Part shown: one piece after another, positions 1,275 through 62,327 of the stretch
How the letters are laid out: every line of letters starts with the position of its first letter
How positions within the stretch are numbered: the first letter of the stretch is position 1
NCBI GenBank assembly: GCA_907163375.1
Contig: CAJQUW010016131.1
Location: forward strand, 62,001-126,000
DNA length: 64,000 nt
Direction of reading: 5' to 3'
DNA from: Prostheceraeus crozeri
Taxonomy: Eukaryota > Platyhelminthes > Polycladida > Euryleptidae
Translations under genes and position numbers: made by a program
The notes under the pieces: generated by a model
Told to the model about the DNA's origin: nothing
What the model saw: the letters and a program-made list of their open reading frames with translations, nothing else
Database searches by the model: none

Positions 1275-4200
1275 ATGGTAACTTGAAGATTTCCTCTCTC
1301 ATCTCCCTCAAACGTGTGGCTAATAGCATCTTCCTCAATTTCAGGCATCTACTTCATCACCAACGCCCTCCCTTCTCGAGGAAAGTTTAGAGCTATTGAG
1401 TGAAGGTAGGTTGTAACAATACACTGAGACTTTAACAGAGATGATAGAATGATTTCTCTTTCAGGTGATGTTAGTTCCAGCTCAGAACTGTCGCGACAAG
1501 GCAACGAGTGGGAATGTGCTGACTGCGGACATATTTTTACAAGGAAGCACAGTCTCCTTCGACACATCAAACAACGTGTGTGTCAACGCAAAGCGGCATC
1601 AATCTCCGAAAGTGAAGTTGATTCTGACGATGACATCTCCTTTCCTTGTGATTTGTGCCCTCTTTCTTTTGATAGTCACTTTCAGCGATCTTCGCACAGA
1701 CTTCAACACACGCATGCAAATGATCACTACACCAACGGTACTTCTACAATCTCCCTCATTAATGTTTCACATAATAATTTAGTACGCGACTACTGCATGG
1801 AGTCCATTACTCAAATAATAGATTTTCCTGAGTGGCTCCTTCAAAATTCTAACATTATCGAAGCGCTCTTCAACAATTTAGACAATTTTAGAATGAAGGC
1901 GCTCATCTACCTCAAACTAAAATATATTAAAATAGATTTTCAAACGGGTCAAGTGACGGAGAGAATACAGTTTCATGTTCCTTCCTCTTCCGCAACCGAA
2001 GTTGTAGACTGCAAGTCTTGGCTAAATTTTCACATTCAATGTTTAAAATCAAATGTAGATAAATTCAATCAACGCGACAGCGCTCTCATTTTTGATGGTG
2101 TGGACTCAGCCATGTTCAAAATTTCCCTATTAGAAAGTCATGCAGCTCGAGGCACATTTAAACTACCAAAAACGTTGTATAATAAGAAAGCTGTCATCAA
2201 TGTCGATTGTAAATCACAGTGTTTCAAATATGCAGTCCTATCCATCCTTCACTATAATGATATCAACGCGAATCGAAATCATACCTATAGCTATAGACAG
2301 TGGGAGGATGAACTAGACTTTGAAGGTTGTGATAGTAACAACATGAAAATCAAAGATGTAGAAACGTTCTTCGAAAAACATAATAAGATTAAAATTGTCG
2401 TTCACGTGTGGGAGAAGGGGTTGAAGGGTGCCCGCTATAATTCACGTTCAACTTGTTATGAACGTGTAGTCAACCTCTTATTAGTAAAACAAGATGATAG
2501 CGAGGAATGGCACTACTGTGGTATTCCCAAAATCTCTCGCTTGTACACACACTTAGGGCACTCTAAAAGAGGTGAACATTTTGTATGCGACCGCTGCATC
2601 CGCTCCTTTTGGAGTAAAGATAAATTTGAAACTCACTATGAATGGTGCAAGCGAGGTAAATTACAAATGGAACGCATGCCCAAAGATAAAATATTTTCGC
2701 ATAGGGATAATGGTGACGAATTAAGTCCCCTGCGTGTCATTTACGCAGACATAGAATGCTACATTGATGATATCATCCACAAGCCAGCAGCCATATCCTG
2801 CTATGAAGTATGGCATGACCACTTTAGGAATAGACAAAACAAAATGCATACTTGGCAAGGTGAAGATAGCATTTCACAATTTCTTGAATTTCTCGATAGA
2901 GCTGCCAAATTTCAACAATCATATGATTCCCAATTGCAGCGTAAGTCACTACATATGTCAGATGAAGACAAACAAAAATTTGAAAGTTGCAGATCGTGCC
3001 CTAAATGTCATAAAACGTTTGATGACGATAAAATTAAGAAAGTGCGTGATCATGATCACATCACTGGTAAATTTAGAAACGCACTCTGCTCCAAATGTAA
3101 CTTTGCACTTAGGTTGAGACGTCGTGTACTACCCGTCATTTTTCATAACTTTAAGGGCTATGACAGTCATATGCTCATAAAAGGAGGGTTGAGCCAGATG
3201 AAGTCGTGGCAGTTTAATGTAATAGCGCAAACGAGAGAAAAATTCATGGCAATGACAGCAAAAGTACCAGTAGATAAAACTAAAGAAAATAAGACAGTCT
3301 TCTTCGAAATAAAATTTTTAGATTCATTCCAATTCATGTCAGCGTCACTAGCTTCTCTCGTTCGTAATCTCAAGTTTCTTCCCCATAGTCAAACTTTGAA
3401 GAAACACTATCCAAATTTAACAGATGACATGATCACTCGCAAAGGAGTCTTTCCCTATGCGTATTTTAGCTCAATGTCTAAACTAAATGAAACAACCCTT
3501 CCTTCCATTGACAAATTCCAAAACGATTTGACGGGTCAAGATTGTCCAGTAGAGGACTATGAACATGCTCAAGAGGCATGGTTAAAATTTGATTGTAAAA
3601 CGTTTGGCGATTATATGATCGCTTACTTAGAATTAGATGTCATTTTGCTGGCTGATGTCTTTCAGGAATTTCGACGAGTGGCATTAGAAGAAGACAAATT
3701 AGATCCTGTCCACTTTGTCAGTCTACCAGCCATGTCCTTTAAATCAGCCTTTAAAATGACTGTTGAGACCATCCATCTCTTACAAGACCCGGAGATGTAT
3801 AACATATTTGAGCGCGGAATACGCGGTGGTCTCACATTTGTGAATAAACATCACATAAAATCTAAAACAGTAGGTAATGATCATATCCACCTAAAATACT
3901 ATGACCAAAATAATTTATATGGCAGTTCACTGTCTAAACCACTACCTCATTCCGAGTTTAGTTGGTTAATTCAAGATAAGCTTGCGTATTACTCCAACCC
4001 TTCAAACATTCTGAAGATTCCAGATGAAGGTGATTGGGGATATTATTTTGAAGTGGATTTGATTTATCCAAATAGTATTAAAAATAAAACTGCTGATTTC
4101 CCACTCGCACCTGAATCTGGTGAAGTGACTGAAGATATGTTTTCACCATTCATGTCACAATTTCATAATAACTTAACAGAGTGTGGACAGCCAAGGTACA

Positions 4201-5246
4201 AACCATGCCGCAAACTTTTACTCACCCAATATGATAAGAAAAATTATCTCGTACACTTCTGCATACTAAAATTCTATTTAGAAATGGGGATGCTTCTAAA
4301 GTCAGTTCACCGCATCATCAAATTTAGACAGAAAGCCTTCCTCAAACCCTACATAGATAGTAACAGCCAGAAACGTGCACTAGCCCAAAATAATTTTGAA
4401 AAAGATTTTTATAAGTATAAGAATAATAGTCTATTTGGTAAGACGATGGAGGATGTTAGAAAACGCATGAACTACAAACTAGGCATTGATGATCAAAAAT
4501 ATCACAAATTGACCTCATCACCTCTTTTCATTGATAGAGACATTATCGATGAGGATCTTGTAGGTGTTAAAATGATAAAATCTGAAGTTGAGTTGTGCAA
4601 GCCCATCTATATTGGCCAAGCTGTACTAAATTACTCTAAGCTTGAAATGTACCAACTCTTTTATAAAATACTAAAACCATGTCCTCTCGTAAAAGAGGTT
4701 CGTTTGTTGGGTGGTGATACAGATAGTTTCTTCTTAGGTATTACCACTCAAAAAGATTTAAATTTTAATGAAGTAGCTATGTCATTAGAAAAATATTTCG
4801 ACACATCCAACTACAATCCCACTCATCCACTCTATTCCATACAGAATAAAGCCAAACTTGGTTGTTTTAAGGATGAAATTGCAGGAAAGGAAATAGATGA
4901 AATGATTCTCCTCCGTCCTAAAATGTATTCCATGAAATTAAAGAAATGTGCAGATAGTATTAAACGTGCTGAAGGTATATCAAAATCCATTGTTCACAAA
5001 ATGAAACATCGGTCCTATAAGAAGGCCTATAAAAATAAAACTATAACGTTTGTCAATATGACAATCTTAAAATCTCAAGTTCATACTGTGAAAACGCACA
5101 CGTTCAAGAAACGAGCGCTTTCAGCATGGGAGGATAAGAGGTGTTGGATAGGACATAACACATCTCTTCCACATGGACATCCTGACAGAAACATACCTCC
5201 ACCCAAAAGAATAAAACTCACGCTACACATTCAGGAGATGTATTGA
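1275..5246 (+). CDS. POLB: Protein-primed family B DNA polymerase, three exons
   Basis: The polymerase replicates the element from its termini. I infer three exons: ATG alone at 1275-1277, then 1345-1405, then 1465-5246; introns start GTAACT and GTAGGT and end in TTTCAG, and phase is kept. The protein is about 1281 aa and begins M-ASTS. In order it has two N-terminal zinc fingers (C-x2-C types, about residues 25-80), a domain also present in the stand-alone protein at 14871-15227, another finger (FVCDRC), Exo I (DIE, D about 450), Exo II (NFKGYD, D about 588), Exo III (YLELD), motif A (DQNNLYG, about 835), motif B (NNSLFGK, about 1008), motif C (GGDTDS, about 1106) and the KMYSMK motif. This is the only complete PolB in the window. 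Confidence 0.95.
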
Positions 5247-8382: not shown

Positions 8383-8417
8383 GTTGATATTGCTGATCTG
8401 CGGCTTTGCATAACATC

Positions 8418-8705
8418 ATGAAGACTTGGATTTTGGACTCTCTACAATATATCAGAGTTGATCGTAATGGAAACGTACATTTCAAAAATTCTCATGGTCA
8501 TACATCAAGAGGTATTACATTAACATGGCGACAATTTGTCAACCTCAATGATATCATGAGGGATTTGGAATATTTTGAAACATTAAGATTCATCTCCTTG
8601 GGTGATCAAGTTTGGCTTCAACGTCGCAACAATGAAATTCAAATCTGCCATTCTCATTCCGCAAAACTGTTTCTCATTTCGCAAATACAATTGGGAGAAG
8701 TATAG
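8418..8705 (+). CDS. Small basic protein a, possible PC4-like domain
   Basis: ATG at 8418 opens a 95-aa frame containing WILDSLQYI, NVHFKNSHG, RGITLTWRQF and IMRDLEYF. The following gene (8798) repeats this pattern, so the two are tandem paralogues. Predicted order is short strands followed by a helix, which weakly recalls the PC4/Sub1 single-strand DNA-binding fold; no decisive motif is present. Past the stop, homology with the paralogue continues in the +1 frame to about 8774, and this frame break is kept in all three copies. It is transcribed against the structural genes, towards TBP. Confidence 0.5.
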   Translation: MKTWILDSLQYIRVDRNGNVHFKNSHGHTSRGITLTWRQFVNLNDIMRDLEYFETLRFISLGDQVWLQRRNNEIQICHSHSAKLFLISQIQLGEV

Positions 8706-8797: not shown

Positions 8798-9448
8798 ATG
8801 AGTTGGAAATTAGATTCCCTACAACGTATTGAAACGGATCATGATCGAAACGTCTATTTCAAAGATTCAACTGGAAATGTGAGAAGAGAGTTTGCTTTAT
8901 CTCATCGTCATTTTCAATCTCTACATCATATCATGAAGGATTTGAAATACTTCTATATGAAAAGACATTCACGTATTGGAAATCGCATCTGGTTGCGCGT
9001 CAACAAACGGCGAATTCAACTCTATCATTCCCAACTCCATACTAACTTCACATTTCATCAAGGTAGTTGGGAAAAGTATAAAAGGAAAGTGCATCGCTCA
9101 ATTTACTCATTTTTTCATCATGAAGCGCCATCGCTACACCATCGTCAACATTCTCCGTCGCTTCAGACTCTACACCAAAATCGATCTCACAACACTACAC
9201 CAACACCTTCCAAACAGCAAGTATTACCCGGGCCGACCTCAAATGTTAGTGGTGAAGATGAACAATTCACGGAATCTTCAACTCTTCCCAAATGGGACTG
9301 TACAGATTCTCGGCGTCCTTTCTTATTCATCGGCGCAGTCAATGCGCTTAGAGCTACAGAGACTACTACGTCGGATATGGAAGAGGGAAAGGTGTGTGAT
9401 GTCGAATCTGACTGTGGACAATATGGTGATCTCTACTCAATTGAGTGA
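8798..9448 (+). CDS. Small basic protein b, paralogue of a, overlapping TBP
   Basis: The first 110 residues match protein a (KLDSLQRIE, NVYFKDSTG, RHFQSLHHIMKDLKYF, IGNRIWL). The remaining half is rich in His, Ser and Thr, then acidic, and overlaps the TBP reading frame (9120-9686) in another frame. It may be a true dual-coding tail or an incidental open frame. The ORF is open in all three copies at the same length (216 aa). A PC4-like coactivator or DNA-binding role is only a hypothesis from fold pattern and neighbourhood. Confidence 0.5.
   Translation: MSWKLDSLQRIETDHDRNVYFKDSTGNVRREFALSHRHFQSLHHIMKDLKYFYMKRHSRIGNRIWLRVNKRRIQLYHSQLHTNFTFHQGSWEKYKRKVHRSIYSFFHHEAPSLHHRQHSPSLQTLHQNRSHNTTPTPSKQQVLPGPTSNVSGEDEQFTESSTLPKWDCTDSRRPFLFIGAVNALRATETTTSDMEEGKVCDVESDCGQYGDLYSIE
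9077..9084 (+). promoter_or_regulatory. TATA box (TATAAAAG) of the TBP gene
   Basis: A consensus TATAAAAG lies 36 bp upstream of the TBP start codon at 9120, inside the coding region of protein b. It is kept in copies 2 (50282-50289, reverse) and 3 (62363-62370, reverse). The homologous site in the paralogue upstream reads TATAGAAG (8701-8708). Confidence 0.5.
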
Positions 9449-9686
9449 AAGTGTATCAGTTTTGAAGATTCGTACCAGCAGTTACAATTTGTGTTATGAA
9501 CCCGAACTTTTTCCTGCAGCTCTCATTAGTTGTTTGTTACCTGTGCATGTTGCAATCTTTCATAATAGTAAAGTGATCATTACTGGACTAAAATCTCATG
9601 TACAAGCAAATGTGATCCTAGACTATCTCATCGAGTATGTACGTACCCAGCGGATTGTAAATAAAAAAACAATTTTTCCAACATGA
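9120..9686 (+). CDS. TATA-binding protein (TBP) homologue, 188 aa
   Basis: This has the length and layout of a TBP core: two imperfect repeats of about 80 residues forming the DNA-binding saddle. Repeat 1 includes KIDLTTL, SKYYPGRP and LQLFPNGTVQILG; repeat 2 includes SYNLCYEPELFP (YEPELFP is identical to the cellular TBP signature) and VAIFHNSKVIITGLK. Three of the four DNA-intercalating Phe positions of TBP appear kept (F56, F131, F147); the first is replaced. I chose the ATG at 9120 because it begins the TBP-like region and follows a TATA box. The frame stays open upstream to 8976 without similarity. A plausible role is recruiting RNA polymerase II to the element's own TATA promoters. Confidence 0.85.
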   Translation: MKRHRYTIVNILRRFRLYTKIDLTTLHQHLPNSKYYPGRPQMLVVKMNNSRNLQLFPNGTVQILGVLSYSSAQSMRLELQRLLRRIWKRERCVMSNLTVDNMVISTQLSESVSVLKIRTSSYNLCYEPELFPAALISCLLPVHVAIFHNSKVIITGLKSHVQANVILDYLIEYVRTQRIVNKKTIFPT

Positions 9687-9696: not shown

Positions 9697-10153
9697 TCAA
9701 ATCATGATAGAACTTACAAATCATTTTTTCATTAGAGGATGGATTACATGAAAAGTTTTGAATAACAGATACAAATCGAGATACATGTAAACGTTTTTAG
9801 ATGAAGTACAGTACAAAAGCACCACACGTTGATGAAAGTGGATGTTGTAGTATGCGTTCATTTCGCTGATATTGACGCGTATGTTTTCTCAACCACTGCT
9901 GTGTTGGTATATTTGGAGGTTGAGCAAGAGAGTCAAATAGTTCACCACGTCGGTCTTCTCCAATAAAGATCGCTTTCCAATGCTCACCGCCTAAATTCTG
10001 CGAATGAGTGTTTAGCACAATAAAGATGGGATAGTGATTTACTGCAGGTGGTAAGGTATCGAGCGAATAGACATTATCGAAATCTTTCAACGTCGCTTCG
10101 TCTGCATTACGCTGTACTTTAGTTTTAATATCGTCAGCAGTCAACCAACTCAT
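9692..10153 (-). pseudogene. PRO: Adenain-like cysteine protease, prematurely stopped
   Basis: This is the virion maturation protease of the adenovirus/Ulp1 type. Candidate catalytic residues are His58 (GEHW), Asp74 (LFDS), Gln103 and Cys110 (STCGAF). A TAA directly after CGAFVLYFI ends the frame at 118 aa, whereas copy 3 continues to 153 aa; the rest of the frame up to 9692 is otherwise preserved. The ATG overlaps the stop of the capsid gene. Its likely substrates include the GG-motif proteins at 11432 and 14534. The loss of the last 35 residues may or may not abolish activity. Confidence 0.8.
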
Positions 10154-11928: not shown

Positions 11929-13017
11929 TCACTGTCGATCACTTAGATGAAAGATGTCGGCACGACGCATCCAAGAGTTCATGCTTAAAGGATAACCAGT
12001 CCATTTAACAAGACACCATTCTTCACCTTGTCGTTTTTTACATCGAATGATTTTCTCTACCAAATATGTTTCACTTTCAGTGACTACCTCAATCTCATCG
12101 CGGTAAAAGCTACCCTCAATTTCTTCATTATCGTAATCTTTCAACTTGTAGGTGGTGGGAGAGTCTTTTTGATCAATCCTTGATACTGTAAATACCTCCT
12201 CTGTCCAATTCGAAAGGTACCCTTTGGCAAAAACACTTTTCACTTTTGAGATACGAACTTTATCACCAATTTTCACATCACTTTTCACATGAGTGCGTTT
12301 ACGTTGGAATGATTCGCGCACTTTATCTACATTGTCAGCATTTACATCTACTGGTCTGAGTCCAATAGAACGATGGATAGAGTGATTGTAGGCATGGAGT
12401 GTATCTTGTAGAACCTTTGTCCAATTTTGTGTCAACTTGGCAGTAAAATGTCGCCACAAGCGATTTTTTAATGTGCGATTAAAACGTTCAACGAGAGCAG
12501 CTTTATAAGCACTCTTTACACTAAACAACTCAATGTCATGCCTCTCAAATAATCTTCTCACATGCTGATTTTCGAACTCTTTTACTTGATCACTCTGAAT
12601 TCTTTTTAGAATGCGACCTTCTCGAAAAATTGTTTGGAATGCTTTTGCTACTCCTTTCCCTTCTTTAGTTTTTAAAGGTTGAGCCCACGCATAACGCGAG
12701 AAAATATCAATGACGGTTAAAATAAAATTATTACCCGAGTTATGTTTTGAAATGGAGGCAACATCACACAAATCTGCTTGCCACTGTTCATCGATGTCAT
12801 GAACAATATAATGGCGGGTGCGGTACTTCTTTTTCGCTTGTTTGTGGAGTGTATAGGTAGCCTGACCCTTTAACCATCGTTTCACTTGTGATTGTGGAAG
12901 ACCACTCGCTATTGATAATTTCTTGATAGATGCAAATCCTGCCGGATGTTTTACATCATAATAGATTGACTTCAAACGTTCAGTCGATGACGACTGACTC
13001 TTTTTCCTCCTTCTCAT
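11929..13017 (-). CDS. INT: Retroviral-type integrase with C-terminal chromodomain
   Basis: The protein inserts the element's termini into host DNA. From the ATG at 13017 it is 362 aa: a basic N-terminus, a helix-turn-helix-like segment (GLPQSQVKRWLKG), the DDE core with D82 (WQADLCDV), D143 (SDQ) and E177 (ERFNRTLK), and a chromodomain near 316-358 (YLVEKIIRC, CLVKWTGYP). The frame is open upstream to 13149, but that part overlaps the Cys-rich ORF and looks non-homologous. The Gly two residues after D143, nearly invariant in integrases and present in copies 2 and 3, is Val here, so activity is doubtful. Confidence 0.9.
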   Translation of the reverse strand: MRRRKKSQSSSTERLKSIYYDVKHPAGFASIKKLSIASGLPQSQVKRWLKGQATYTLHKQAKKKYRTRHYIVHDIDEQWQADLCDVASISKHNSGNNFILTVIDIFSRYAWAQPLKTKEGKGVAKAFQTIFREGRILKRIQSDQVKEFENQHVRRLFERHDIELFSVKSAYKAALVERFNRTLKNRLWRHFTAKLTQNWTKVLQDTLHAYNHSIHRSIGLRPVDVNADNVDKVRESFQRKRTHVKSDVKIGDKVRISKVKSVFAKGYLSNWTEEVFTVSRIDQKDSPTTYKLKDYDNEEIEGSFYRDEIEVVTESETYLVEKIIRCKKRQGEEWCLVKWTGYPLSMNSWMRRADIFHLSDRQ

Positions 13018-13195
13018 CTTTTTGTTTTCTTGCCTTTCTACATTTACAACAACTGCAGCATTTAGCTTTAGCGGTTTTGCGATCGTGTTCACATTGCTTA
13101 GGGGTTTCATTGTGAGAGCTGGCGCAGCAAGTGCAAGTGACAACGACATTCACCTCTGGCGGCTCATTACATGGCAAGCAACACATCTGCTTCAT
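12980..13195 (-). CDS. Cys-rich basic 71-aa ORF upstream of integrase
   Basis: It starts MKQMCCLPCNEP, has CTCC and CCSCCKCRKARKQK clusters (about a dozen Cys), and ends in a Lys/Glu tail. It begins two bases before the stop region of the PPGW gene and overlaps the integrase start, as in a tight polycistronic arrangement. It could bind metal. In copies 2 and 3 a TGA replaces the Cys codon after PKQ, leaving 34 codons, which weakens the case for a required protein. Confidence 0.45.
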   Translation of the reverse strand: MKQMCCLPCNEPPEVNVVVTCTCCASSHNETPKQCEHDRKTAKAKCCSCCKCRKARKQKDEKEEKESVVID

Positions 13196-13889: not shown

Positions 13890-14502
13890 AGTTTGTAGAT
13901 AATCATGGGAGTTTTCAAAATATCACTTCGAAATCTAAATGCTTCCGGACACTCTTGCGTAAAGTCAATAAGTAAGTAACCGTGTGGTTTTTCAGTAGCT
14001 GCTCGAAAAATTTCAATTAAGGTTTTGATCCTCTGGGTGCAACTTGTCGCGCTAAAATTTCAAATTGACTTTTATCTCGCGGATTCTTGAAAATAGCATA
14101 ATAGTGTGTATTCAGAATTCGTGTACGAGCTTATTTTCTATCAGGAAACAAATTTTGTGTGATATAGATGATAAAGCACCTTTTATGATGTGCTGCGCGA
14201 GTGAACATATCTGTAACATCTTTTGACTTCTTACTTTCTTTTAATAAATCATCCAATACAACAACATCATTAGACTGAAGTTTATCCACTGGAATAATTC
14301 CTTCATGTCGAATAAAGTTGCGACTTTGCAATTCCTGAAACAGGGACGGTTGATAAATACCATAACACCAAATCACTCGATTGATAGGTTCCTTAAACAA
14401 CTCCCTTCTTTTATCCAATAAATTCAGCGTGAAAACAGTTTTACCTGCATGAGATGGACCTGATACAGTCAGAACTTTATCACATTGAAGTCTGAAATCC
14501 AT
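13886..14502 (-). pseudogene. ATP: FtsK/HerA-type genome packaging ATPase, broken
   Basis: This is homologous to the intact 205-aa ORF at 56945-57562. Walker A (GPSHAGKT) and Walker B (VVVLDDLL) and the sensor-like ITQNLFP are present. A stop follows shortly after (FPDRK then TAA), and a one-base loss lies further downstream near 14020, so the C-terminal third is out of reach. The enzyme would pump DNA into capsids. Confidence 0.85.
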
Positions 14503-14533
14503 TATAATACTTTGAGATTTAACATTTGTATAA

Positions 14534-14884
14534 TTAACGTCTAGAGCCAAAGATATTACCCAATACGTTGCCCACGATAGGAGCTAGTATCGGTAGTAAC
14601 GCTGGAAGGAGACCACCCTTTTGTGTTAGAGTTTCCCTCTTTCTTTGAAGGGTGACTTTAGGATTGGAGATGAAACGCAATTTCGTAGCATATCGCTTAA
14701 GTAACTTTCGTTGTTTTGGTGCTCATTTCTTCGTCCTCAACTTTCTCACATGAGAAATAATTTCACGAATGAATTTATCGTTAGCATGTCGTATAGCATT
14801 GTATCGCTGATTTGCTTTCATTCGTCGGAGAGCTTGAATGGCTGGAGAAACCTTTGAAGACTTTTGACTTTTACGTTTCGCCAT
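14534..14884 (-). CDS. Small basic protein and GG-motif hydrophobic peptide, split by in-frame TGA
   Basis: ATG at 14884 opens 53 codons (ending FIREIISHVRKLRTKK), then TGA at 14725-14723. The same frame stays open for 62 further codons with a clear second module: RKLLKRYATKLRF, LTQKGG, then a hydrophobic helix (LLPALLP). In other Polintons I know this as one protein: basic part, QxGG protease site, membrane-active tail. The TGA is shared by all three copies. It is therefore an inherited lesion, a readthrough site, or a real split with the second part expressed by other means. Confidence 0.55.
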
Positions 14885-16093: not shown

Positions 16094-16827
16094 TCTTCTC
16101 CGACTTGCCCTTCGTACCGCTGCTGTTAAGGATTTGATCAATTATGTCATCCACGTTGGGTGGTTTTGGAATATATAGGATGGATTTCATATGCATGGAG
16201 AGCGAGGCTATTTTATTATCCTTGTGCCGACCATAATATAGCCCATTCACTTTGAAAAGGATATCCCAAGTACCTTCTCCGAGCTCGTCGCATGTGATGG
16301 ATGTTGAATGATCTCCCTCCTTCTTATAGTAAGTGCACCAATGTGATACCGGTAGGCAAATTTGATTACCATCCCAAATCTTTCTATAGGGAGTATCCTT
16401 GTCATCTCTCGCCTTCCACTCTTGAGCAAGAGGAGTAGGAATGTCCATATTTAATGTCACGTACTCCTCAATAATATCAAGTTGGTGGCGAATGTACGGA
16501 CTCACGGGGATCAGTATGTAGTCCCCATACTGATTGCGCATTACCTTGACATCCGTGAAAGGGAGCATTCCCGTTTGGAGTACTACGCTATGATCGTCAT
16601 AACGCAAGACTTGGTTAAATTTACGCTGTAGCGGTGTAGGATTATGTACCTTGGTTGTTTCTTCCACTGGCCTCAGTTGTAGATGATCTGATCGTAGCGA
16701 ACCTTGTAACGTTTGACCGCCATTTTGTCCTACTAGTGCAGCAGATGGAGTAGATGCCTGAAAATGAAAAAGATTGTATTAAGTTAACGTTCAAGGGAGG
16801 AGAGGGAGGGAAGTAGCGACTTACCAT
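16053..16827 (-). CDS. Right-end gene with one-codon first exon, 235 aa
   Basis: Exon 1 is only ATG (16827-16825), followed by GTAAGT; a TTTTCAG acceptor ends at 16758 and exon 2 is 16757-16053. The 67-bp intron keeps frame. The protein starts M-ASTPSAALVGQNGG, has a beta-rich middle with VKVMRNQYGDYILIPV and a C-terminal GLYYGRHK ... SLSMHMKSILYIP block, and a Lys-rich tail. I associate the GxYxGxHK block with a frequent but uncharacterised Polinton protein; single-strand DNA binding is a guess. It is the first gene behind the right-end promoter. Confidence 0.65.
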
Positions 16828-16923
16828 TTTAGTTGGATAATAGAATAGAGAGAGAGAGAGAAAATGTGCGTCCGTCACTCGTGTGATTCAACGATGGAAT
16901 GATTCTCACTGTGGAAGGCTCGC

Positions 16924-44862: not shown

Positions 44863-45479
44863 ATGGATTTCAGACTTCAATGTGATAAAGTTCTGACTGT
44901 ATCAGTCCATCTCATGCAGGTAAAACTGTTTTCACGCTGAATTTATTGGATAAAAGAAGGGAGTTGTTTAAGGAACCTATCAATCGAGTGATTTGGTGTT
45001 ATGGTATTTATCAACCGTCGCTGTTTCAGGAATTGCAAAGTCGCAACTTTATTCGACATGAAGGAATTATTCCAGTGGATAAACTTCAGTCTAATGATGT
45101 TGTTGTATTGGATGATTTATTAAAAGAAAGTAAGAATTCAAAAGATGTTACAGATATGTTCACTCGGGCAGCACATCATAAAAGGTGCTTTATCATCTAT
45201 ATCACACAAAATTTGTTTCCTGATGGAAAAGAAGCTCGTACACGAAACCTGAATACACACTATTATGCTATTTTCAAGAATCCGCGAGATAAAAGTCAAT
45301 TTGAAATTTTAGCGCGACAAGTTGCACCCAGAGGATCAAAAGCATTAATTGAAATTTTTCAAGCAGCTACTGAAAAACCACACGGTTACTTATTCATTGA
45401 CTTTACGCAAGAGTGTCCGGAAGAATTTAGATTTCGAAGTGATATTTTGAAAACTCCCATGATTATCTACAAACTATGA
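44863..45479 (+). pseudogene. ATP: Packaging ATPase, frameshifted at Walker A (copy 2)
   Basis: One G is missing just before the Walker A codons (near 44905), so the start and the rest of the protein are in different frames. Everything from LDKRREL to the C-terminus (45479) is open and matches copy 3. Confidence 0.85.
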
Positions 45480-46169: not shown

Positions 46170-46274
46170 ATGAGGCAGATGTGTTGCTTGCCATGTAATG
46201 AGCCGCCAGAGGTGAATGTCGTTGTCACTTGCACTTGCTGCGCCAGCTCTCACAATGAAACCCCTAAACAATGA
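46170..46274 (+). pseudogene. Cys-rich ORF, stopped after 34 codons (copy 2)
   Basis: Starts MRQMCCLPCNEP; a TGA stands where copy 1 has a Cys codon after PKQ. The second Cys cluster is therefore not reached. The same stop is in copy 3. Confidence 0.4.
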
Positions 46275-46347
46275 GAACACGATCGCAAAACCGCTAAAGC
46301 TAAATGCTGCAGTTGTTGTAAATGTAGAAAGGCAAGAAAACAAAAAG

Positions 46348-47435
46348 ATGAGAAGGAGGAAAAAGAGTCAGCCGTCATCGACTGAACGTTTGAAGTCAAT
46401 CTATTATGATGTAAAACATCCGGCAGGATTTGCATCTATCAAGAAATTATCAAAAGCGAGTGGTCTTCCACAATCACAAGTGAAACGATGGTTAAAGGGT
46501 CAGGCTACCTATACACTCCACAAACAAGCGAAAAAGAAGTACCGCACCCGCCATTATATTGTTCATGACATCGATGAACAGTGGCAAGCAGATTTGTGTG
46601 ATGTTGCCTCCATTTCAAAACATAACTCGAGTAATAATTTTATTTTAACCGTCATTGATATTTTCTCGCGTTATGCGTGGGCTCAACCTTTAAAAACTAA
46701 AGAAGGGAAAGGAGTAGCAAAAGCATTCCAAACAATTTTTCGAGAAGGTCGCATTCTAAAAAGAATTCAGAGTGATCAAGGAAAAGAGTTCGAAAATCAG
46801 CATTTGAGAAGATTATTTGAGAGGCATGACATTGAGTTGTTTAGTGTAAAGAGTGCTTATAAAGCTGCTCTCGTTGAACGTTTTACTCGCACATTAAAAA
46901 ATCGCTTGTGGCGACATTTTACTGCCAACTTGACACAAAATTGGACAAAGGTTCTACGAGATACTCTCCATGCCTACAATCACTCTATCCATCGTTCTAT
47001 TGGACTCAGACCAGTAGATGTAAATGCTGACAATGTAGATAAAGTGCGCGAATCATTCCAACGTAAACGCACTCATGTGAAAAGTGATGTGAAAATTGGT
47101 GATGAAGTTCGTATCTCAAAAGTGAAAAGTGTTTTTGCCAAAGGGTACCTTTCGAATTGGACAGAGGAGGTATTTACAGTATCAAGGATTGATCAAAAAG
47201 ACTCTCCACCACCTACAAGTTGAAAGATTACAATAATGAAGAAATTGAGGGTAGCTTTTACCACGATGAGATTGAGGTAGTCACTGAAAGTGAAACATAT
47301 TTGGTAGAGAAAATCATCCGATGTAAAAAACGGCAAGGTGAAGAATGGTGTCTTGTTAAATGGGCTGGTTATCCTTCAAGTATGAACTCTTGGATGCGTC
47401 ATGCCGACATCTTTCATCTAAGTGATCGACAGTGA
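46348..47435 (+). pseudogene. INT: Integrase separated from its chromodomain by a frameshift (copy 2)
   Basis: The catalytic core is open with both Asp, the Gly after SDQ and the Glu (ERFTRTLK). One C is missing before the ACCACCTAC stretch (near 47208), ending the core at 47223 after PPPTS. The chromodomain (YLVEKIIRC, CLVKWAGYP) stays open in the next frame to 47435. Copy 3 shares the lesion, so it predates the split of copies 2 and 3. Confidence 0.85.
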
Positions 47436-47934: not shown

Positions 47935-49212
47935 ATGGAGTGTAAAACTTCCGGGTTTTGTTTGTTTGATCAACAAGCCATACAGACAGATATTCTTAGT
48001 TCAAGTATTGTAGATTATCATCCTCGAACAGCTGAGAATGCTGGCCCCATTGAAGTTGTTATTCCTGGTGGTAGTGATGACTACATAGATTTGAGTTATG
48101 CGATGGTTGATTTGAGGTTTAGAATTCAGCAAGCAGATGGAACTGCTATTGACGATACACATAAAGTTGGACTGAACAATTTACCATTGACTACATTACT
48201 TCACGATGTTTCTCTAACGATTGGAGAGCAGCAGGTGGAAGGTGGCCAAAGCGAATATCCCTATAAATCATATTTCAATCATGTATCACAGTTTCATCCA
48301 GCAGCACAAAAAAGTCATATGGAAGCCATGGGATGGTACAGAGATGAAGCAGGAAAATTTGATGCTGAAACAAACAGTGGCTTTGTAAAGCGATCTGCTA
48401 TGATTAAAGATAGTAAAGTATGTCAGCTATATGGTCCGCTGAATTTAGACTTCTTTAGACAGTCAATGTTTTTACTCTGTAATACCAGCATGCGACTCAA
48501 GCTGACATTGAATAAGCCTGAATTTACGCTGAATGCATTTGCTAAAGTTGACAATTTTAGAATTCATGTGGAAGATATTGCACCTTACATTCGTCGAGTA
48601 GTACCCAATCCAAGTGTCATTAGAGGACATGCTGAAGGTCTTAACCGCCAAAATGCCATTTACCCCGTTCAGCATACAAAGCTTCTCACCTTTACAATTC
48701 CGAAAGATCAAAAGAGTTTCATGAAAGATGGCCTCTTTCCATCGGAAGCACCGAAGCTCCTCATGGTGGCAATGGTTGAAAATGATGCATTTAATGGTAA
48801 TGTAAAGAAGAATCCCTTCAATTTTAAACACAATCAGTTAAGTGAAATTGCTTTACGTGTAAATGGTGTGAGTCATCCTGGTCCACCCTACAAACCAGAT
48901 TTTGCTGCGGATCAATTTATGCGCAGTTATGTTTATTTTATGGATGTCTTTGGCTTTTACAATACGGATGACACCAACGGACTCACTATGAAAGAGTTTA
49001 AGAGTGGATATACTATTTATGCATTTGATTTGACTGCTGACAGCGATATTAGTGCACCCTATCGTCAAGCGAACGTGCCTCATAATATTCGTTTGGATTT
49101 GACGTTCAAAAGAACACTACCTGAGACGATCAATGTATTAATTTATGCAGTCTTTGATTCAAATATTGAAATTACAAAGTATCGTGACGTGATTCTTCAG
49201 TATAATCGTTAA
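47935..49212 (+). CDS. MCP: Major capsid protein, intact 425 aa
   Basis: The only uninterrupted capsid gene in the window. Length and conserved blocks (DDYIDLSYA, YPYKSYFNH, VENDAFNG, NPFNFKHNQL, YTIYAFDLTAD, INVLIYAVFDSNIEI) fit a double jelly-roll hexon-type protein that would form the icosahedral shell. The stop overlaps the protease start (TAATG). Private substitutions (LLHDV, IAPYIRR) against copies 1 and 3 indicate independent drift. Confidence 0.88.
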   Translation: MECKTSGFCLFDQQAIQTDILSSSIVDYHPRTAENAGPIEVVIPGGSDDYIDLSYAMVDLRFRIQQADGTAIDDTHKVGLNNLPLTTLLHDVSLTIGEQQVEGGQSEYPYKSYFNHVSQFHPAAQKSHMEAMGWYRDEAGKFDAETNSGFVKRSAMIKDSKVCQLYGPLNLDFFRQSMFLLCNTSMRLKLTLNKPEFTLNAFAKVDNFRIHVEDIAPYIRRVVPNPSVIRGHAEGLNRQNAIYPVQHTKLLTFTIPKDQKSFMKDGLFPSEAPKLLMVAMVENDAFNGNVKKNPFNFKHNQLSEIALRVNGVSHPGPPYKPDFAADQFMRSYVYFMDVFGFYNTDDTNGLTMKEFKSGYTIYAFDLTADSDISAPYRQANVPHNIRLDLTFKRTLPETINVLIYAVFDSNIEITKYRDVILQYNR

Positions 49213-49673
49213 TGAGTTGGTTGACTGCTGACGATATTAAAACTAAAGTACAGCGTAATGCAGACGAAGCGACGTTGAAAGCTTTCGATAATGTCTATTC
49301 GCTCGATACCTTACCACCTGCAGTAAATCACTATCCCATCTTTATTGTACTAAACACTCATTCGCAGAATTTAGGCGGTGAGCATTGGAAAGCGATCTTT
49401 ATTGGAGAAGACCGACATGGTGAACTATTTGACTCTCTTGCTCAACCTCCAAATATACCAACACAGCAGTGGTTGAGAAAACATACGCGTCAATATCAGC
49501 GAAATGAACGCATACTACAACATCCACTTTCATCAACGTGTGGTGCTTTTGTACTGTACTTCATCTAAAAACGTTTACATGTATCTCGATTTGTATCTGT
49601 TATTCAATACTTTTCATGTAATCCATCCTCTAATGAAAAGATGATTTGTAAGTTCTATCATGATTTGAAATAA
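49212..49673 (+). pseudogene. PRO: Adenain-like protease, same premature stop as copy 1
   Basis: His58, Asp74, Gln103 and Cys110 are present. TAA after CGAFVLYFI at 49566-49568 matches copy 1, although copy 2 is otherwise closest to copy 3, where this codon is TTA. Confidence 0.8.
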
Positions 49674-49760: not shown

Positions 49761-50246
49761 TTATACATGAGATTTTAGTCCAGTAATGATCACTTTACTA
49801 TTATGAAAGATTGCAACATGCACAGGTAACAAACAACTAATGAGAGCTGCAGGAAAAAGTTCAGGTTCATAACACAAATTGTAACTGCTGGTACGAATCT
49901 TCAAAAATGATACACTTTCACTCAATTGAGTAGAGATCACCATATTGTCCACAGTCAGATTCGACATCACACACCTCTCCCTCTTCCATATCCGACGTAG
50001 TAGTCTCTGTAGCTCTAAGCGCATTGACTGCGCCGATGAATGAGAAAGGGCGCCGAGAATCTGTACAGTTCCATTTGGGAAGAGTTGAAGATTCCGTGAA
50101 TTGTTCATCTTCACCACTAACATTTGAGGTCGGCCCGGGTAATACTTGCTGTTTGGAAGGTGTTGGTGTAATGTTGTGAGATCGATTTTGGTGTAGAGTC
50201 TGAAGCGGCGGAGAATGTTGACGATGGTGTAGCGATGGCGCTTCAT
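49761..50246 (-). pseudogene. TBP homologue truncated by a stop (copy 2)
   Basis: The start ATG (50246) and both Phe-bearing saddle segments are kept, but a Gln codon has become TAA after LKSHV, removing the last helix (about 20 residues). The TATA box at 50289-50282 is kept. Confidence 0.8.
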
Positions 50247-50568
50247 GATGAAAAAATGAGTAAATTGAGCGATGTACCTTCCTTTTATACTTCTCCCAAC
50301 TACCTTGATGAAATGTGAAGTTAGTATGGAGTTGGGAATGATAGAGTTGAATTCGCCGATTGTTGACACGCAACCAGATGCGATTTCCAATACGTGAATG
50401 TCTTTTCATATAGAAGTATTTCAAATCCTTCATGATATGATGTAGAGATTGAAAATGACGATGAGATAAAGCAAACTCTCTTCTCACATTTCCAGTTGAA
50501 TCTTTGAAATAGACGTTTCGATCATGATCCGTTTCAATACGTTGTAGGGAATCTAATTTCCAACTCAT
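49918..50568 (-). CDS. Small basic protein b (copy 2)
   Basis: Open 216-aa frame as in copy 1, overlapping the TBP gene. Substitutions are scattered through both halves. Confidence 0.5.
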   Translation of the reverse strand: MSWKLDSLQRIETDHDRNVYFKDSTGNVRREFALSHRHFQSLHHIMKDLKYFYMKRHSRIGNRIWLRVNNRRIQLYHSQLHTNFTFHQGSWEKYKRKVHRSIYSFFHHEAPSLHHRQHSPPLQTLHQNRSHNITPTPSKQQVLPGPTSNVSGEDEQFTESSTLPKWNCTDSRRPFSFIGAVNALRATETTTSDMEEGEVCDVESDCGQYGDLYSIE

Positions 50569-50660: not shown

Positions 50661-50948
50661 CTATACTTCTCCCAATTGTATTTGCGAAATGAGAAACAGT
50701 TTTGCGGAATGAGAATGGCAGATTTGAATTTCATTGTTGCGACGTTGAAGCCAAACTTGATCACCCAAGGAGATGAATCTTAATGTTTCAAAATATTCCA
50801 AATCCCTCATGATATCATTGAGGTTGACAAATTGTCGCCATGTTAATGTAATACCTCTTGATGTATGACCATGAGAATTTTTGAAATGTACGTTTCCATC
50901 ACGATCAACTCTGATATATTGTAGAGAGTCCAAAATCCAAGTCTTCAT
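50661..50948 (-). CDS. Small basic protein a (copy 2)
   Basis: 95 aa from ATG 50948; same frame break at the C-terminal side as copy 1. Nearly unchanged (VDRDGN for VDRNGN). Confidence 0.5.
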   Translation of the reverse strand: MKTWILDSLQYIRVDRDGNVHFKNSHGHTSRGITLTWRQFVNLNDIMRDLEYFETLRFISLGDQVWLQRRNNEIQICHSHSAKLFLISQIQLGEV

Positions 50949-50983
50949 GATGTTATGCAAAGCCGCAGATCAGCAATATCAAC

Positions 50984-52381
50984 ATGTCGTTTTCTCATAT
51001 TTTGCTTAGCAATGCGGCCGCAAATAGATTTGCTAGTAATCGAGCCGCACTCTTTTCTACTCCCATTGATCATGCACAACAGCTAAATGGAAATTGGGAA
51101 GTGGGTTTCACTCAACTTGTTCATAGCAACTGTGTCTATACTTTTGATCATGAGGTGATGACTATTAATATGAGACGCACAGCTGCTTACCAATGTGAAA
51201 AGGGCTGCCGAGTATACATTCCACAGTGGCCAAAGAAAGATATCTTATCATGTAAAAAGTTTATATATGATTTCTTGAATAAAGCGTGTAAACATATTGT
51301 CCAATTTACTCCGCACAATGATGATCATAATTATGTACATCATGTAGTTGAGAAAGATTGGATTGTTGGTTTAAGTCCAAGTTTAAGAAATGATTTAGGT
51401 TACCTCGCTAGCGCTTTAACAAGCTATGATAATTATAACGCTAATTACCACCCAAGTGGTCATAAACAGTTCATATATCGAGAGGAAGCTTATTATGTAG
51501 ATCTTATTCCAAAAAATGAGAAGACGTTGGTGAAGAAGATTGTGATTAAGCCAAGAAAGACAAACATGACTCCTGAAACATTATTGAAGAAATTTAATTA
51601 TCTCCTTCGAGTTGATGGTAAACAAGTGGCAACATTGACTTATATCAAATCATCTAATCATATTGCAATAAGTAAATTAAATGATGATGATCTAGTATTA
51701 GTTTGTTCAAAAGATTTTCATCAGTTCTTACGACATCGTTCTGCAGCTGTTCATGGAAAATTTGATATGCAACATTTACAATGTGAAAGGTCAAATCAAT
51801 TTGATACAGAATGGCCCGTATCTTTATACAGAAAGTGTGTAGAGCCTTTAGGTGGTATCTTACATGAAACAAGAGTGTTGATGCCTCGCATTATTACTTC
51901 AGTTAAATTGGTTGTAGATTATTTAAATGAAGTGATTAATGAGCAACAAATTTCATTTTCTGAAAAAGAAGGTTTTTTGTCTCTCACTATAAGTGGAAAA
52001 GGTATTGAACTAATTATGGATAAAACTCTAATGGACATTTTGGGTTTTCATCAAAATATCTTTAAAAGTGGTACTGTAACCAAAGCTAGCGCAGACATGT
52101 CACTATCGCGTCGCATTAACTATTTTCAGATATATTCCAATATTGGTGAAGATGTACGTGTGGGAGATGTTGAAGCGCCATTGCTAGCAATGATACCATA
52201 CCAGCCAAAAAGCTACAGTATTTTATCTGAGCATACTTTCAAGAAATTGCATTATACAAAGCTGAAATCAAACTACATCCCACAAATTGATATTGCAATT
52301 TATGACGATGCTGGTGCGTTGATTCCTTTTCATAAAGATGCTGTGACAAGTATCACACTCCATTTCCGAATGAAGAGTTAA
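50984..52381 (+). CDS. Putative virion protein 1, intact 465 aa
   Basis: MSFSHILLSNAAANRF, then LNGNWEVGFTQL near residue 40, a Cys-containing segment (CEKGCRVYIPQW), a central domain, and a C-terminal domain with VGDVEAPLLAMIP, IPQIDIAIYDDAG and TLHFRMKS. This end is characteristic of large structural proteins in animal Polintons. It is paralogous to the next gene. Its divergent start lies 36 bp from protein a. An outer-capsid, fibre or penton role is inferred only from context. Confidence 0.65.
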   Translation: MSFSHILLSNAAANRFASNRAALFSTPIDHAQQLNGNWEVGFTQLVHSNCVYTFDHEVMTINMRRTAAYQCEKGCRVYIPQWPKKDILSCKKFIYDFLNKACKHIVQFTPHNDDHNYVHHVVEKDWIVGLSPSLRNDLGYLASALTSYDNYNANYHPSGHKQFIYREEAYYVDLIPKNEKTLVKKIVIKPRKTNMTPETLLKKFNYLLRVDGKQVATLTYIKSSNHIAISKLNDDDLVLVCSKDFHQFLRHRSAAVHGKFDMQHLQCERSNQFDTEWPVSLYRKCVEPLGGILHETRVLMPRIITSVKLVVDYLNEVINEQQISFSEKEGFLSLTISGKGIELIMDKTLMDILGFHQNIFKSGTVTKASADMSLSRRINYFQIYSNIGEDVRVGDVEAPLLAMIPYQPKSYSILSEHTFKKLHYTKLKSNYIPQIDIAIYDDAGALIPFHKDAVTSITLHFRMKS

Positions 52382-54126: not shown

Positions 54127-55104
54127 TCAATACATCTCCTGAATGTGGTAGCGTGAGTTTTATTCTTTTGGGTGGAGGTATGTTTGTGTCAGGATGTCCA
54201 TGTGGAAGAGATGTGTTATGTCCTATCCAACACCTCTTATCCTCCTATGTTGAAAGTGCTCGTTTCTTGAACGTGTGCGTTTTCACAGTATGAACTTGAG
54301 ATTTTAAGATTGTCATATTGACAAACGTTATAGTTTTATTTTTATAGGCCTTCTTATAGGACCGATGTTTCATTTTGTGAACAATGGATTTTGATATACC
54401 TTTAGCACGCTTAATACTATCTGCACATTCTTTTAATTTCATGGAATACATTTTAGGACGGAGGAGAATCATTTCATCTATTTCCTTTCCTGCAATTTCA
54501 TCCTTAAAACAACCATGTTTGGCTTTATTCTGTATGGAATAGAGTGGATGAGTGGGATTGTAGTTAGATGTGTCGAAATATTTTTCTAATGACTTACCTA
54601 CTTCATTAAAATTTAAATCTTTTTGAGTGGTAATTCCTAAAAGAAACTATCCGTATCACCACCTAACAAACGAACCTCTTTTACGAGAGGACATGGTTTT
54701 AGTATTTTGTAGAAGAGTTGATACATTTTAAGCTTGGAATAATCTAAAACGGCTTGCCCAATATAGATGGGCTTGCACAACTCAACTTCAGATTTTATCA
54801 TTTTGACACCTACAAGATCCTCATCGATGATGTCTCTATCAATGAAAAGAGGTGATGAGGTCAATTTGTGATATTTTTGATCATCAATGCCTAGTTTGTA
54901 GTTCATGCGTTTTCTAACATCCTCCATCGTCTTACCAAATAGACTATTATTCTTATACTTATAAAAATCTTTTTCAAAATTATTTTGGGCGAGTGCACGT
55001 TTCTGGCTGTTACTATCTATGTAGGGTTTGAGGAAAGCTTTCTGTCTAAATTTGATAATGCGGTGAACTGACTTTAGAAGCATGCCCATTTCTAAATAGA
55101 ATGG
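54127..55104 (-). pseudogene. POLB: PolB 3' remnant (copy 2)
   Basis: Only the C-terminal quarter, from FYLEMG onward, is left. Motif B and GGDTDSFF are present, then one base is lost just after the DTDS motif, and a Trp codon near the C-terminus is TAG (after KRALST). The upstream part is missing because of the joint with copy 3. Confidence 0.85.
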
Positions 55105-55119
55105 TTTCTAAATAGAATT
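55089..55119. repeat. Rearrangement joint between copies 2 and 3, with 14-bp duplication
   Basis: TTTCTAAATAGAAT from PolB occurs twice (55089-55102 and 55105-55118) separated by GG, then the sequence switches to the region before the exonuclease gene (equal to 43036 onward). A short TT overlap lies at the switch. This looks like end joining with templated filler. Confidence 0.75.
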
Positions 55120-56547: not shown

Positions 56548-56913
56548 ATGGCGAAACGTAAAATGACGAAACGTAAAGGTCAAAAGTCTTCAAAGGTTTC
56601 TCCAGCCATTCAAGCTCTCCGACGAATGAAAGCAAATCAGCGATACAATGCTATACGACATGCTAACGATAAATTCATTCGTGAAATTATTTCTCATGTG
56701 AGAAAGTTGAGGACGAAGAAATGAGCACCAAAACAACGAAAGTTACTTAAGCGATATGCTACGAAATTGCGTTTCATCTCCAATCCTAAAGTCACCCTTC
56801 AAAGAAAGAGGGAAACTCTAACACAAAAGGGTGGTCTCCTTCCAGCGTTACTACCGATGCTAGCTCCTATCGTGGGCAACGTATTGCGTAATATCTTTGG
56901 CTCTAGACGTTAA
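56548..56913 (+). CDS. Small basic protein and GG peptide split by TGA (copy 3)
   Basis: TGA at 56722-56724 as in the other copies; downstream frame open to 56913. Confidence 0.55.
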
Positions 56914-56944
56914 TTATGCAAATGTTAAATCTCAAAGTATTATA

Positions 56945-57562
56945 ATGGATTTCAGACTTCAATGTGATAAAGTTCTGACTGTATCAGGTCCATCTCATGC
57001 AGGTAAAACTGTTTTCACGCTGAATTTATTGGATAAAAGAAGGGAGTTGTTTAAGGAACCTATCAATCGAGTGATTTGGTGTTATGGTATTTATCAACCG
57101 TCGCTGTTTCAGGAATTGCAAAGTCGCAACTTTATTCGACATGAAGGAATTATTCCAGTGGATAAACTTCAGTCTAATGATGTTGTTGTATTGGATGATT
57201 TATTAAAAGAAAGTAAGAATTCAAAAGATGTTACAGATATGTTCACTCGCGCAGCACATCATAAAAGGTGCTTTATCATCTATATCACACAAAATTTGTT
57301 TCCTGATGGAAAAGAAGCTCGTACACGAAACCTGAATACACACTATTATGCTATTTTCAAGAATCCGCGAGATAAAAGTCAATTTGAAATTTTAGCGCGA
57401 CAAGTTGCACCCAGAGGATCAAAAGCATTAATTGAAATTTTTCAAGCAGCTACTGAAAAACCACACGGTTACTTATTCATTGACTTTACGCAAGAGTGTC
57501 CGGAAGAATTTAGATTTCGAAGTGATATTTTGAAAACTCCCATGATTATCTACAAACTATGA
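56945..57562 (+). CDS. ATP: Genome packaging ATPase, intact 205 aa
   Basis: Walker A is G15-T22 (GPSHAGKT), Walker B D84-D85 (VVVLDDLL), and ITQNLFP follows as the expected third motif; this is the FtsK/HerA (A32-like) packaging class. I start at ATG 56945, because the frame upstream has only a TTG. The C-terminus overlaps the PPGW gene by four bases. The only open ATPase in the window; it would act at a capsid vertex during DNA loading. Confidence 0.88.
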   Translation: MDFRLQCDKVLTVSGPSHAGKTVFTLNLLDKRRELFKEPINRVIWCYGIYQPSLFQELQSRNFIRHEGIIPVDKLQSNDVVVLDDLLKESKNSKDVTDMFTRAAHHKRCFIIYITQNLFPDGKEARTRNLNTHYYAIFKNPRDKSQFEILARQVAPRGSKALIEIFQAATEKPHGYLFIDFTQECPEEFRFRSDILKTPMIIYKL

Positions 57563-58252: not shown

Positions 58253-58357
58253 ATGAGGCAGATGTGTTGCTTGCCATGTAATGAGCCGCCAGAGGTGAAT
58301 GTCGTTGTCACTTGCACTTGCTGCGCCAGCTCTCACAATGAAACCCCTAAACAATGA
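58253..58357 (+). pseudogene. Cys-rich ORF, stopped after 34 codons (copy 3)
   Basis: Same TGA as in copy 2. Confidence 0.4.
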
Positions 58358-58430
58358 GAACACGATCGCAAAACCGCTAAAGCTAAATGCTGCAGTTGTT
58401 GTAAATGTAGAAAGGCAAGAAAACAAAAAG

Positions 58431-59518
58431 ATGAGAAGGAGGAAAAAGAGTCAGCCGTCATCGACTGAACGTTTGAAGTCAATCTATTATGATGTAAAAC
58501 ATCCGGCAGGATTTGCATCTATCAAGAAATTATCAAAAGCGAGTGGTCTTCCACAATCACAAGTGAAACGATGGTTAAAGGGTCAGGCTACCTATACACT
58601 CCACAAACAAGCGAAAAAGAAGTACCGCACCCGCCATTATATTGTTCATGACATCGATGAACAGTGGCAAGCAGATTTGTGTGATGTTGCCTCCATTTCA
58701 AAACATAACTCGAGTAATAATTTTATTTTAACCGTCATTGATATTTTCTCGCGTTATGCGTGGGCTCAACCTTTAAAAACTAAAGAAGGGAAAGGAGTAG
58801 CAAAAGCATTCCAAACAATTTTTCGAGAAGGTCGCATTCTAAAAAGAATTCAGAGTGATCAAGGAAAAGAGTTCGAAAATCAGCATGTGAGAAGATTATT
58901 TGAGAGGCATGACATTGAGTTGTTTAGTGTAAAGAGTGCTTATAAAGCTGCTCTCGTTCAACGTTTTACTCGCACATTAAAAAATCGCTTGTGGCGACAT
59001 TTTACTGCCAACTTGACACAAAATTGGACAAAGGTTCTACAAGATACACTCCATGCCTACAATCACTCTATCCATCGTTCTATTGGACTCAGACCAGTAG
59101 ATGTAAATGCTGACAATGTAGATAAAGTGCGCGAATCATTCCAACGTAAACGCACTCATGTGAAAAGTGATGTGAAAATTGGTGATGAAGTTCGTATCTC
59201 AAAAGTGAAAAGTGTTTTTGCCAAAGGGTACCTTTCGAATTGGACAGAGGAGGTATTTACAGTATCAAGGATTGATCAAAAAGACTCTCCACCACCTACA
59301 AGTTGAAAGATTACAATAATGAAGAAATTGAGGGTAGCTTTTACCACGATGAGATTGAGGTAGTCACTGAAAGTGAAACATATTTGGTAGAGAAAATCAT
59401 CCGATGTAAAAAACGGCAAGGTGAAGAATGGTGTCTTGTTAAATGGGCTGGTTATCCTTCAAGTATGAACTCTTGGATGCGTCATGCCGACATCTTTCAT
59501 CTAAGTGATCGACAGTGA
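58431..59518 (+). pseudogene. INT: Integrase with catalytic Glu lost and chromodomain frameshift (copy 3)
   Basis: The third acidic residue of the DDE triad is Gln (ALVQRFTRT), which should abolish catalysis. The frameshift before the chromodomain is shared with copy 2; core ends at 59306, chromodomain frame 59303-59518. Confidence 0.85.
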
Positions 59519-61781: not shown

Positions 61782-62327
61782 TTATTTTACAATCCGCTGG
61801 GTACGTACATACTCGATGAGATAGTCTAGGATCACATTTGCTTGTACATGAGATTTTAGTCCAGTAATGATCACTTTACTATTATGAAAGATTGCAACAT
61901 GCACAGGTAACAAACAACTAATGAGAGCTGCAGGAAAAAGTTCGGGTTCATAACACAAATTGTAACTGCTGGTACGAATCTTCAAAAATGATACACTTTC
62001 ACTCAATTGAGTAGAGATCACCATATTGTCCACAGTCAGATTCGACATCACACACCTCTCCCTCTTCCATATCCGACGTAGTAGTCTCTGTAGCTCTAAG
62101 CGCATTGACTGCGCCGATGAATGAGAAAGGGCGCCGAGAATCTGTACAGTTCCATTTGGGAAGAGTTGAAGATTCCGTGAATTGTTCATCTTCACCACTA
62201 ACATTTGAGGTCGGCCCGGGTAATACTTGCTGTTTGGAAGGTGTTGGTGTAATGTTGTGAGATCGATTTTGGTGTAGAGTCTGAAGCGGCGGAGAATGTT
62301 GACGATGGTGTAGCGATGGCGCTTCAT
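61782..62327 (-). CDS. TATA-binding protein homologue, 181 aa (copy 3)
   Basis: Open from ATG 62327 through both saddle repeats to VRTQRIVK. YEPELFP and the three Phe positions are kept. The C-terminus is shorter than in copy 1 because of a one-base difference at the end. TATA box at 62370-62363. Confidence 0.83.
   Translation of the reverse strand: MKRHRYTIVNILRRFRLYTKIDLTTLHQHLPNSKYYPGRPQMLVVKMNNSRNLQLFPNGTVQILGALSHSSAQSMRLELQRLLRRIWKRERCVMSNLTVDNMVISTQLSESVSFLKIRTSSYNLCYEPELFPAALISCLLPVHVAIFHNSKVIITGLKSHVQANVILDYLIEYVRTQRIVK

Follow-up and report, generated by a model that had tools for sequence, protein, structure and literature searches.

TATA-binding proteins (TBPs) of DNA viruses are already known, from giant viruses, mirusviruses and the herpesvirus mimics. 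In the viral TBPs described in PMC7221094 the DNA-contact phenylalanine is largely kept and the first TFIIB-contact glutamate is about 40% conserved; almost all of the genomes concerned also carry a viral TFIIB. TBP is found in 59% of mirusvirus genomes, and mirusviruses encode RNA polymerase subunits (PMC10132985). ORF24 of KSHV has a TBP fold with a polar DNA interface and works together with the host's RNA polymerase II on a TATTWAA box (PMC12529657). The TBPs mentioned in a paper on Cymbomonas belong to mirusvirus-like elements and not to Polinton-like viruses (PMC10675990). The vertebrate Mavericks, as described in PMC8097293, have the module order integrase, capsid, protease, and three of their genes (pz, pw and pm) have no known function. 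Neither TATA nor TBP occurs in the main texts of PMC11071296, PMC11071308 and PMC8097293. A search of the open full-text literature, which omits most subscription papers, returned no report of a TBP in Polintons, Mavericks, adintoviruses or virophages, and the view of the initial annotation that this is not a described Polinton gene is consistent with that literature.

Here we describe a TBP gene carried by an integrated element of the polyclad Prostheceraeus crozeri. The window, the whole stretch of 64,000 nucleotides that was analysed, holds three copies of this element, and their features are collected in Table 1. The copies are 97.4-99.6% identical across long aligned blocks. The initial annotation had argued from the occurrence of the gene in all three; the occurrence stands, but near-identical relatives are not by themselves independent evidence. 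Copies B and C meet at 55102-55118, where both are cut mid-element, and this junction may come from a tandem that was recombined or truncated, or from a join made in assembly.

Table 1. Features of the element copies in the window (bit scores are Pfam matches).
Feature	Copy	Position	Strand	Details
Element copy	A	ending near 17.8 kb
Element copy	B	41.3-55.1 kb		orientation opposite to A
Element copy	C	55.1 kb to window end
DNA polymerase B-type ORF	A	1449..5246	+	1265 aa; motifs judged by eye
ORF a0	A	8406..8705	+	tandem paralog of a1, 43% over 77 aa
ORF a0	other copies	50661-50960 and 62742-63041	-
ORF a1	A	8798-9448	+	216 aa; overlaps TBP start
ORF a1	other copies	49918-50568 and 61999-62649	-
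Two-frame stretch (TBP and a1)	A	9120..9448	+	shuffle test
TBP gene	A	9120..9686	+	188 aa from ATG; PF00352 69.9 bits, E 1.6e-19
TBP gene	B	49761..50246	-	161 aa; PF00352 68.6 bits for frame 49761-50390
TBP gene	C	61782..62327	-	181 aa; PF00352 72.9 bits for frame 61782-62471
Protease-like gene (Ulp1 / adenovirus protease type)	A	9797..10153	-	PF02902
Protease-like gene	other copies	49212-49568 and 61293-61754	+
Integrase with chromodomain	A	11929..13149	-	PF00665 35.4 bits (cut-off 32.6), PF00385 28.3 bits (cut-off 25.1)
Integrase	B	46216..47223	+	PF00665 40.5 bits (cut-off 32.6)
Integrase	C	58299-59306	+
Candidate major capsid protein		47935..49212	+	425-aa ORF adjoining protease
ATPase-like ORF, candidate packaging ATPase	C	56897..57562	+
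ATPase-like ORF, shorter form	A	14131-14550	-
ATPase-like ORF, shorter form	B	44946-45479	+
465-aa ORF		50984..52381	+	divergent from a0

The 1265-aa ORF, in which B-type motifs were read by eye, is presumably the DNA polymerase; it gave no Pfam polymerase match. The same ORF contains C2H2 zinc-finger-like and endonuclease VII-like stretches (PF02945, 29.8 bits). Matches of the protease-like gene to PF02902 score 19.1 and 19.7 bits, slightly below the cut-off of 20.7. The 425-aa ORF, a candidate by resemblance for the Polinton major capsid protein, had no match in a Pfam scan; a 54% identical relative of it lies in L010, one of the genomic stretches described below. The ATPase-like ORF has weak, sub-cut-off matches in copy C (AAA_14, E 0.0079; Pox_A32, E 0.038) and in copy A (Pox_A32, E 0.019). 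The 465-aa ORF, with no Pfam match above cut-off, is kept in L009, L010, L012 and L013. A search for terminal repeats gave nothing convincing: the only inverted pair that spans the element is 86 nt long with 73% identity (1273-1358 / 16744-16829), and no target duplication was established. We call the element a Polinton on the basis of its integrase, its protease-like gene, the polymerase motifs read by eye and the gene order, an identification with gaps, the capsid and ATPase candidates being weak. With Polintons and Mavericks it shares an integrase with chromodomain, a protease-like gene and B-type polymerase motifs, and the order of integrase, capsid candidate and protease matches that of the vertebrate Mavericks; it differs in its TBP, which is not among the eight core genes given in PMC8097293.

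The initial annotation took 9120-9686 for a TBP gene from the strings YEPELFP and LQLFPNGT and a third string, all of which are present in the order described. This identity is borne out by Pfam and by the PDB. PF00352 matches two stretches (lobes) in all three copies, with 68.6-72.9 bits against a cut-off of 22.9. A sequence search of the PDB gave 35 distinct chains at E <= 0.001, of which 34 are named TBP or TFIID and the remaining one, from E. cuniculi, is named ECU04_1440. The proposed check for a saddle fold was run on copy C, and the predicted structure is a confident saddle, with nothing to refute the assignment; in a Foldseek search of BFVD the model matches 47 viral models at E <= 0.001. 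Copy C was the version modelled and placed in the tree. Its C-terminal end resembles that of most relatives, while in copy B an early stop after 161 residues shortens the protein and in copy A the reading frame is altered across the last few codons. In all three copies the TBP gene and the protease-like gene are arranged tail to tail, and on the upstream side of TBP ORF a1 precedes and overlaps it. The location first proposed, between the protease and the virion genes, thus holds for the protease; the other neighbour is a1, which had been missed, and the capsid gene is a candidate by resemblance, with no profile match.

The assembly searched (G000; 2.05 Gb in 14165 contigs) gave at least 150 scored TBP matches from 10983 first-look candidates. 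Four of the 150 are the host's own genes and are located on two contigs apart from the elements. One of these genes is an ordinary TBP, identical to human TBP at 85.7% over 119 residues (one exon) and at 91.2% over 34 residues (another). The second, with 42.6% identity over 115 residues, we take from its motifs to be TLF-like; TLF is a mark of bilaterian animals. From the other 146 matches, 20 stretches of 9.9 kb, covering 21 of the 146 rows, were hand-picked for diversity. Other element genes are found in all 20, namely polymerase in 19, integrase in 12 and protease in 12. Seven stretches represent the window's own family, with TBPs 94-97% identical, and L027 is an 82% relative of this family. 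L009, L010 and L012 form a 42-43% lineage with the gene order of the window, and L013 a 40% lineage with a different gene order. TBP adjoins the polymerase in eight stretches (L011, L018, L020, L022, L024, L025, L026 and L028), within which no match to the integrase, the protease or the capsid candidate was found. L022 contains an inverted duplication within 9.9 kb: two polymerase pieces stand head to head, and a TBP lies at the outer end of each.

A search of G000 with the copy B integrase (25278 first-look candidates) found at least 120 places with an identity of 96% or above, most of them with long open frames, and this number of close matches points to a recent, massive spread of the window element. 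For a check that does not depend on TBP, 0.9 kb at the expected TBP site was examined in 20 of the 120 listed integrase places. TBP was found in 19, with a frame that stays open across both lobes in 18 and ends early in one; at the remaining place an integrase stretch stands where TBP was expected. Since the 120 places are near copies, this constancy applies to one subfamily only. A decaying gene without present function would account for the damage near the gene end in copies A and B and for the stops in some genome copies, such as L011 and L027. However, the 18 open genes and the recent spread suggested by the integrase places speak against decay, as does a dN/dS of 0.28 for TBP between copy C and L027 (0.24 in the a1 overlap and 0.31 outside; the numbers are small and the L027 TBP has a stop), and we consider it very improbable.

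A protein search returned 62 TBP homologs, all with a precomputed TBP domain. A profile of a distant branch returned 250, and among the 120 of these that were listed all but one have a precomputed TBP domain. The homolog set comprises 156 sequences. In 37 of these (among P0098-P0156, from the profile search) the ORF, of at most 100 aa, has lobe 2 only, with the lobe-2 motif in 37/37 and the lobe-1 motif in 0/37; such ORFs may reflect decay, an intron or a change of frame that separates the two lobes, or TBPs with one lobe. Scans of viral contigs and of genome contigs with the Polinton-type TBP family found no relative, and a viral-contig scan with an alignment headed by TBPs of cellular origin recovered 13 other viral TBPs. 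The tree has 56 rows: 37 Polinton-type (the window, five G000 genes and 31 of the 156 homologs), nine cellular, and 10 of the 13 viral TBPs from IMG/VR, two near-duplicates and one sequence with a stop having been left out; no row is identified as a mirusvirus.

The 37 Polinton-type rows fall on one side of a branch with support of 100/100, present in all 200 bootstrap trees; the two stems are long, about 1.5 each. All 10 IMG/VR viral TBPs lie outside this group. Animal TBP-related factors of the TLF/TBPL1 type are likewise divergent TBP paralogs, but the host TLF-like row groups with the eukaryotic TBPs, outside the Polinton group. The window protein shares 26% identity with the host TBP and 32-78% with the other Polinton-type rows. 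In P0157 the first 102 residues match ORF a1 (28% over 108 columns, E 7e-10) and the rest is TBP. From the tree placement and P0157 we infer that the homologs outside G000, including those from metagenomes, sit in elements. TBP is of course a host family, and both a TBP and a TLF-like gene are present in this host. The idea that the gene is a host TBP gene or pseudogene lying in the element or close to it, or was recently captured from the host, is nevertheless ruled out for the sampled loci by the location of the host copies on other contigs, the 26% identity, the separate group at 100/100 and the TBP in 19 of 20 integrase-anchored places, and we give it next to no credence overall. The initial annotation's claim that the gene is element cargo is backed by the loci outside the window and by its separation from host TBP in the tree, and its interpretation is supported; the mechanism that it put forward, in which the protein would steer host RNA polymerase II or compete for it, is still a proposal. 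We read the gene as coding for a genuine TBP with two lobes, owned by the element and long separated from the host TBP.

ORF a1 has relatives that are ORFs of 216-222 aa, and the a1 tails or homologous frames align across lineages. The second frame is open over 324 nt in the window family, 303 nt in L010 and L009, and 336 nt in L018 and L011. When synonymous codons were permuted in 2000 shuffles that preserved the TBP protein and its codons, the mean lengths were 22-54 nt and a frame as long as that observed was reached in 0/2000 (L011: 1/2000). Eleven loci from three lineages were tested: seven have a long second frame, two a shorter but unusual one (L012, P 0.011; L028, P 0.008), and in two, L025 and L026, it is not open. 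Between copy C and L027, dN/dS is 0.22 for the N-terminal part of a1 and 0.71 for the a1 frame within the overlap (small numbers). The overlap of TBP and a1 is thus probably dual coding. The predicted structure of a1 has a pLDDT of 57.4, with weak, inconclusive matches that include Whirly, PUR-alpha and PC4 chains. P0158, a protein predicted from a JGI contig of 10296 bases, is 98% identical to the window ORF a1, which indicates a near-identical element in another public sequence.

Residues were counted, in yeast numbering, in 107 sequences (the window and 106 of the 156 homologs, of 155-260 aa). K127 and K138 are taken as part of a basic surface on lobe 1 that serves TFIIA and regulators. Three of the four intercalating phenylalanines are kept (F116 107/107, F190 106/107, F207 107/107), while F99 is replaced by proline in 106/107, a loss that could weaken DNA bending. 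Other residues of the DNA face are also kept (N159 105/107, V161 105/107, T215 106/107), as are the TFIIB-contact glutamates of lobe 2 (E186 104/107, E188 107/107) and L189 (97/107). On the other hand, V122 is glutamine in 107/107 and L114 in 95/107, T124 is replaced by L, M, F or I in 107/107, K127 is replaced in 107/107 and K138 is lysine in 18/107; the basic lobe-1 surface is not kept. The alignment is ambiguous near V203-L205 and no inference was made there. On this alignment only one side is altered: the DNA face of lobe 1 is rebuilt, and lobe 2, the half in contact with TFIIB, is kept.

The intercalating phenylalanines and TFIIB glutamates are named in PMC7221094 and PMC12529657. The TBPs of Nucleocytoviricota (for example Heterosigma akashiwo virus 01, Terrestrivirus, EsV-1-53) resemble it as virus-borne two-lobed TBP folds (BFVD). 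However, the first glutamate, about 40% conserved in the large viruses, is almost invariant here, and whereas a viral TFIIB is almost always present in those genomes (PMC7221094), the TFIIB family is absent from the Pfam matches of the 38 scanned window ORF entries, some of which are mutual copies. Mirusvirus TBP is similarly carried by a eukaryotic DNA virus (PMC10132985), but mirusviruses are large and have their own RNA polymerase subunits, while the Polinton is small and integrated and no RNA polymerase was recognised in it. The herpesvirus mimics share the virus-borne TBP fold and ORF24, in addition, the use of host polymerase and a non-TATA box (PMC12529657); in ORF24 four phenylalanines are retained and the TFIIB glutamates are missing, the reverse of the Polinton family with its kept glutamates and one lost phenylalanine. 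What sets the family apart is its separate branch, on which lobe 1 is rebuilt, the TFIIB contacts are kept and an overlapping partner is conserved.

These features suggest how the protein might act. The element TBP would be made when the element is active and would bind the element's promoters, through canonical contacts of lobe 2 and novel ones of lobe 1, at a box other than TATA. Once bound, it would recruit host TFIIB and then host RNA polymerase II. Loss of the basic lobe-1 surface, which in the host serves TFIIA and negative regulators, would let it escape normal control. Promoter binding, the box and the recruitment of TFIIB and polymerase are inferred. We think it rather likely that the element TBP, separate from the host's, is in this way a half-orthogonal transcription switch, combining its own promoter reader with host TFIIB and polymerase II. 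The fuller version, a Polinton-owned TBP subfamily that is a half-orthogonal reader with a canonical lobe 2, a lobe 1 that reads a new box through its almost invariant Pro/Gln, and an overlapping a1 partner, has in our estimation an even chance of being correct.

Of 16 starts, a single one has TATAWAW upstream, a scarcity that a box other than TATA would lead one to expect. Enrichment of 9-mers and of 6-/7-mers upstream of starts was not above that in shuffles. ATGCAA lies 29-38 bases ahead of the start codons of p136 (43678), p151 (47477), p465 (50984) and a1 (8798); its count was reached by 12/200 shuffles, which is not significant and makes it a lead only. It is also found upstream of L027 starts, and not upstream of those checked in L010, L018, L013, L025 and L028.

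The same residues bear on two other functions. As a competitor, the element TBP would titrate host TFIIB or occupy host promoters and so damp host transcription. Retention of the TFIIB-contact glutamates on a protein with an altered DNA face would suit such a role, but the kept intercalating phenylalanines, N159, V161 and T215, each in at least 105/107, indicate selection for DNA binding, and we regard a competitor as unlikely. Alternatively, the protein could bend DNA for replication, packaging or integration of the element, outside transcription. The lineage in which TBP adjoins the polymerase (8 of the 20 sampled stretches) fits this reading, as do the weak and inconclusive matches of a1 to single-strand DNA-binding folds, but a DNA-bending protein gives no reason for the TFIIB-contact residues to persist, and this function appears to us quite unlikely.

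An element TBP with kept TFIIB contacts and a rebuilt DNA face, on a branch apart from the cellular TBPs and the other viral TBPs tested, is a direct handle on how Polinton genes are switched on in animal nuclei. The family indicates that the saddle tolerates the reworking of one half with the other half kept, and with a1 it forms a probable overlapping gene pair built on an ancient fold. If the half-orthogonal switch is real, a mobile element would possess its own transcription-initiation module inside animal nuclei; a virus-like, many-copy animal element may thus carry its own promoter reader and borrow the remaining transcription machinery.
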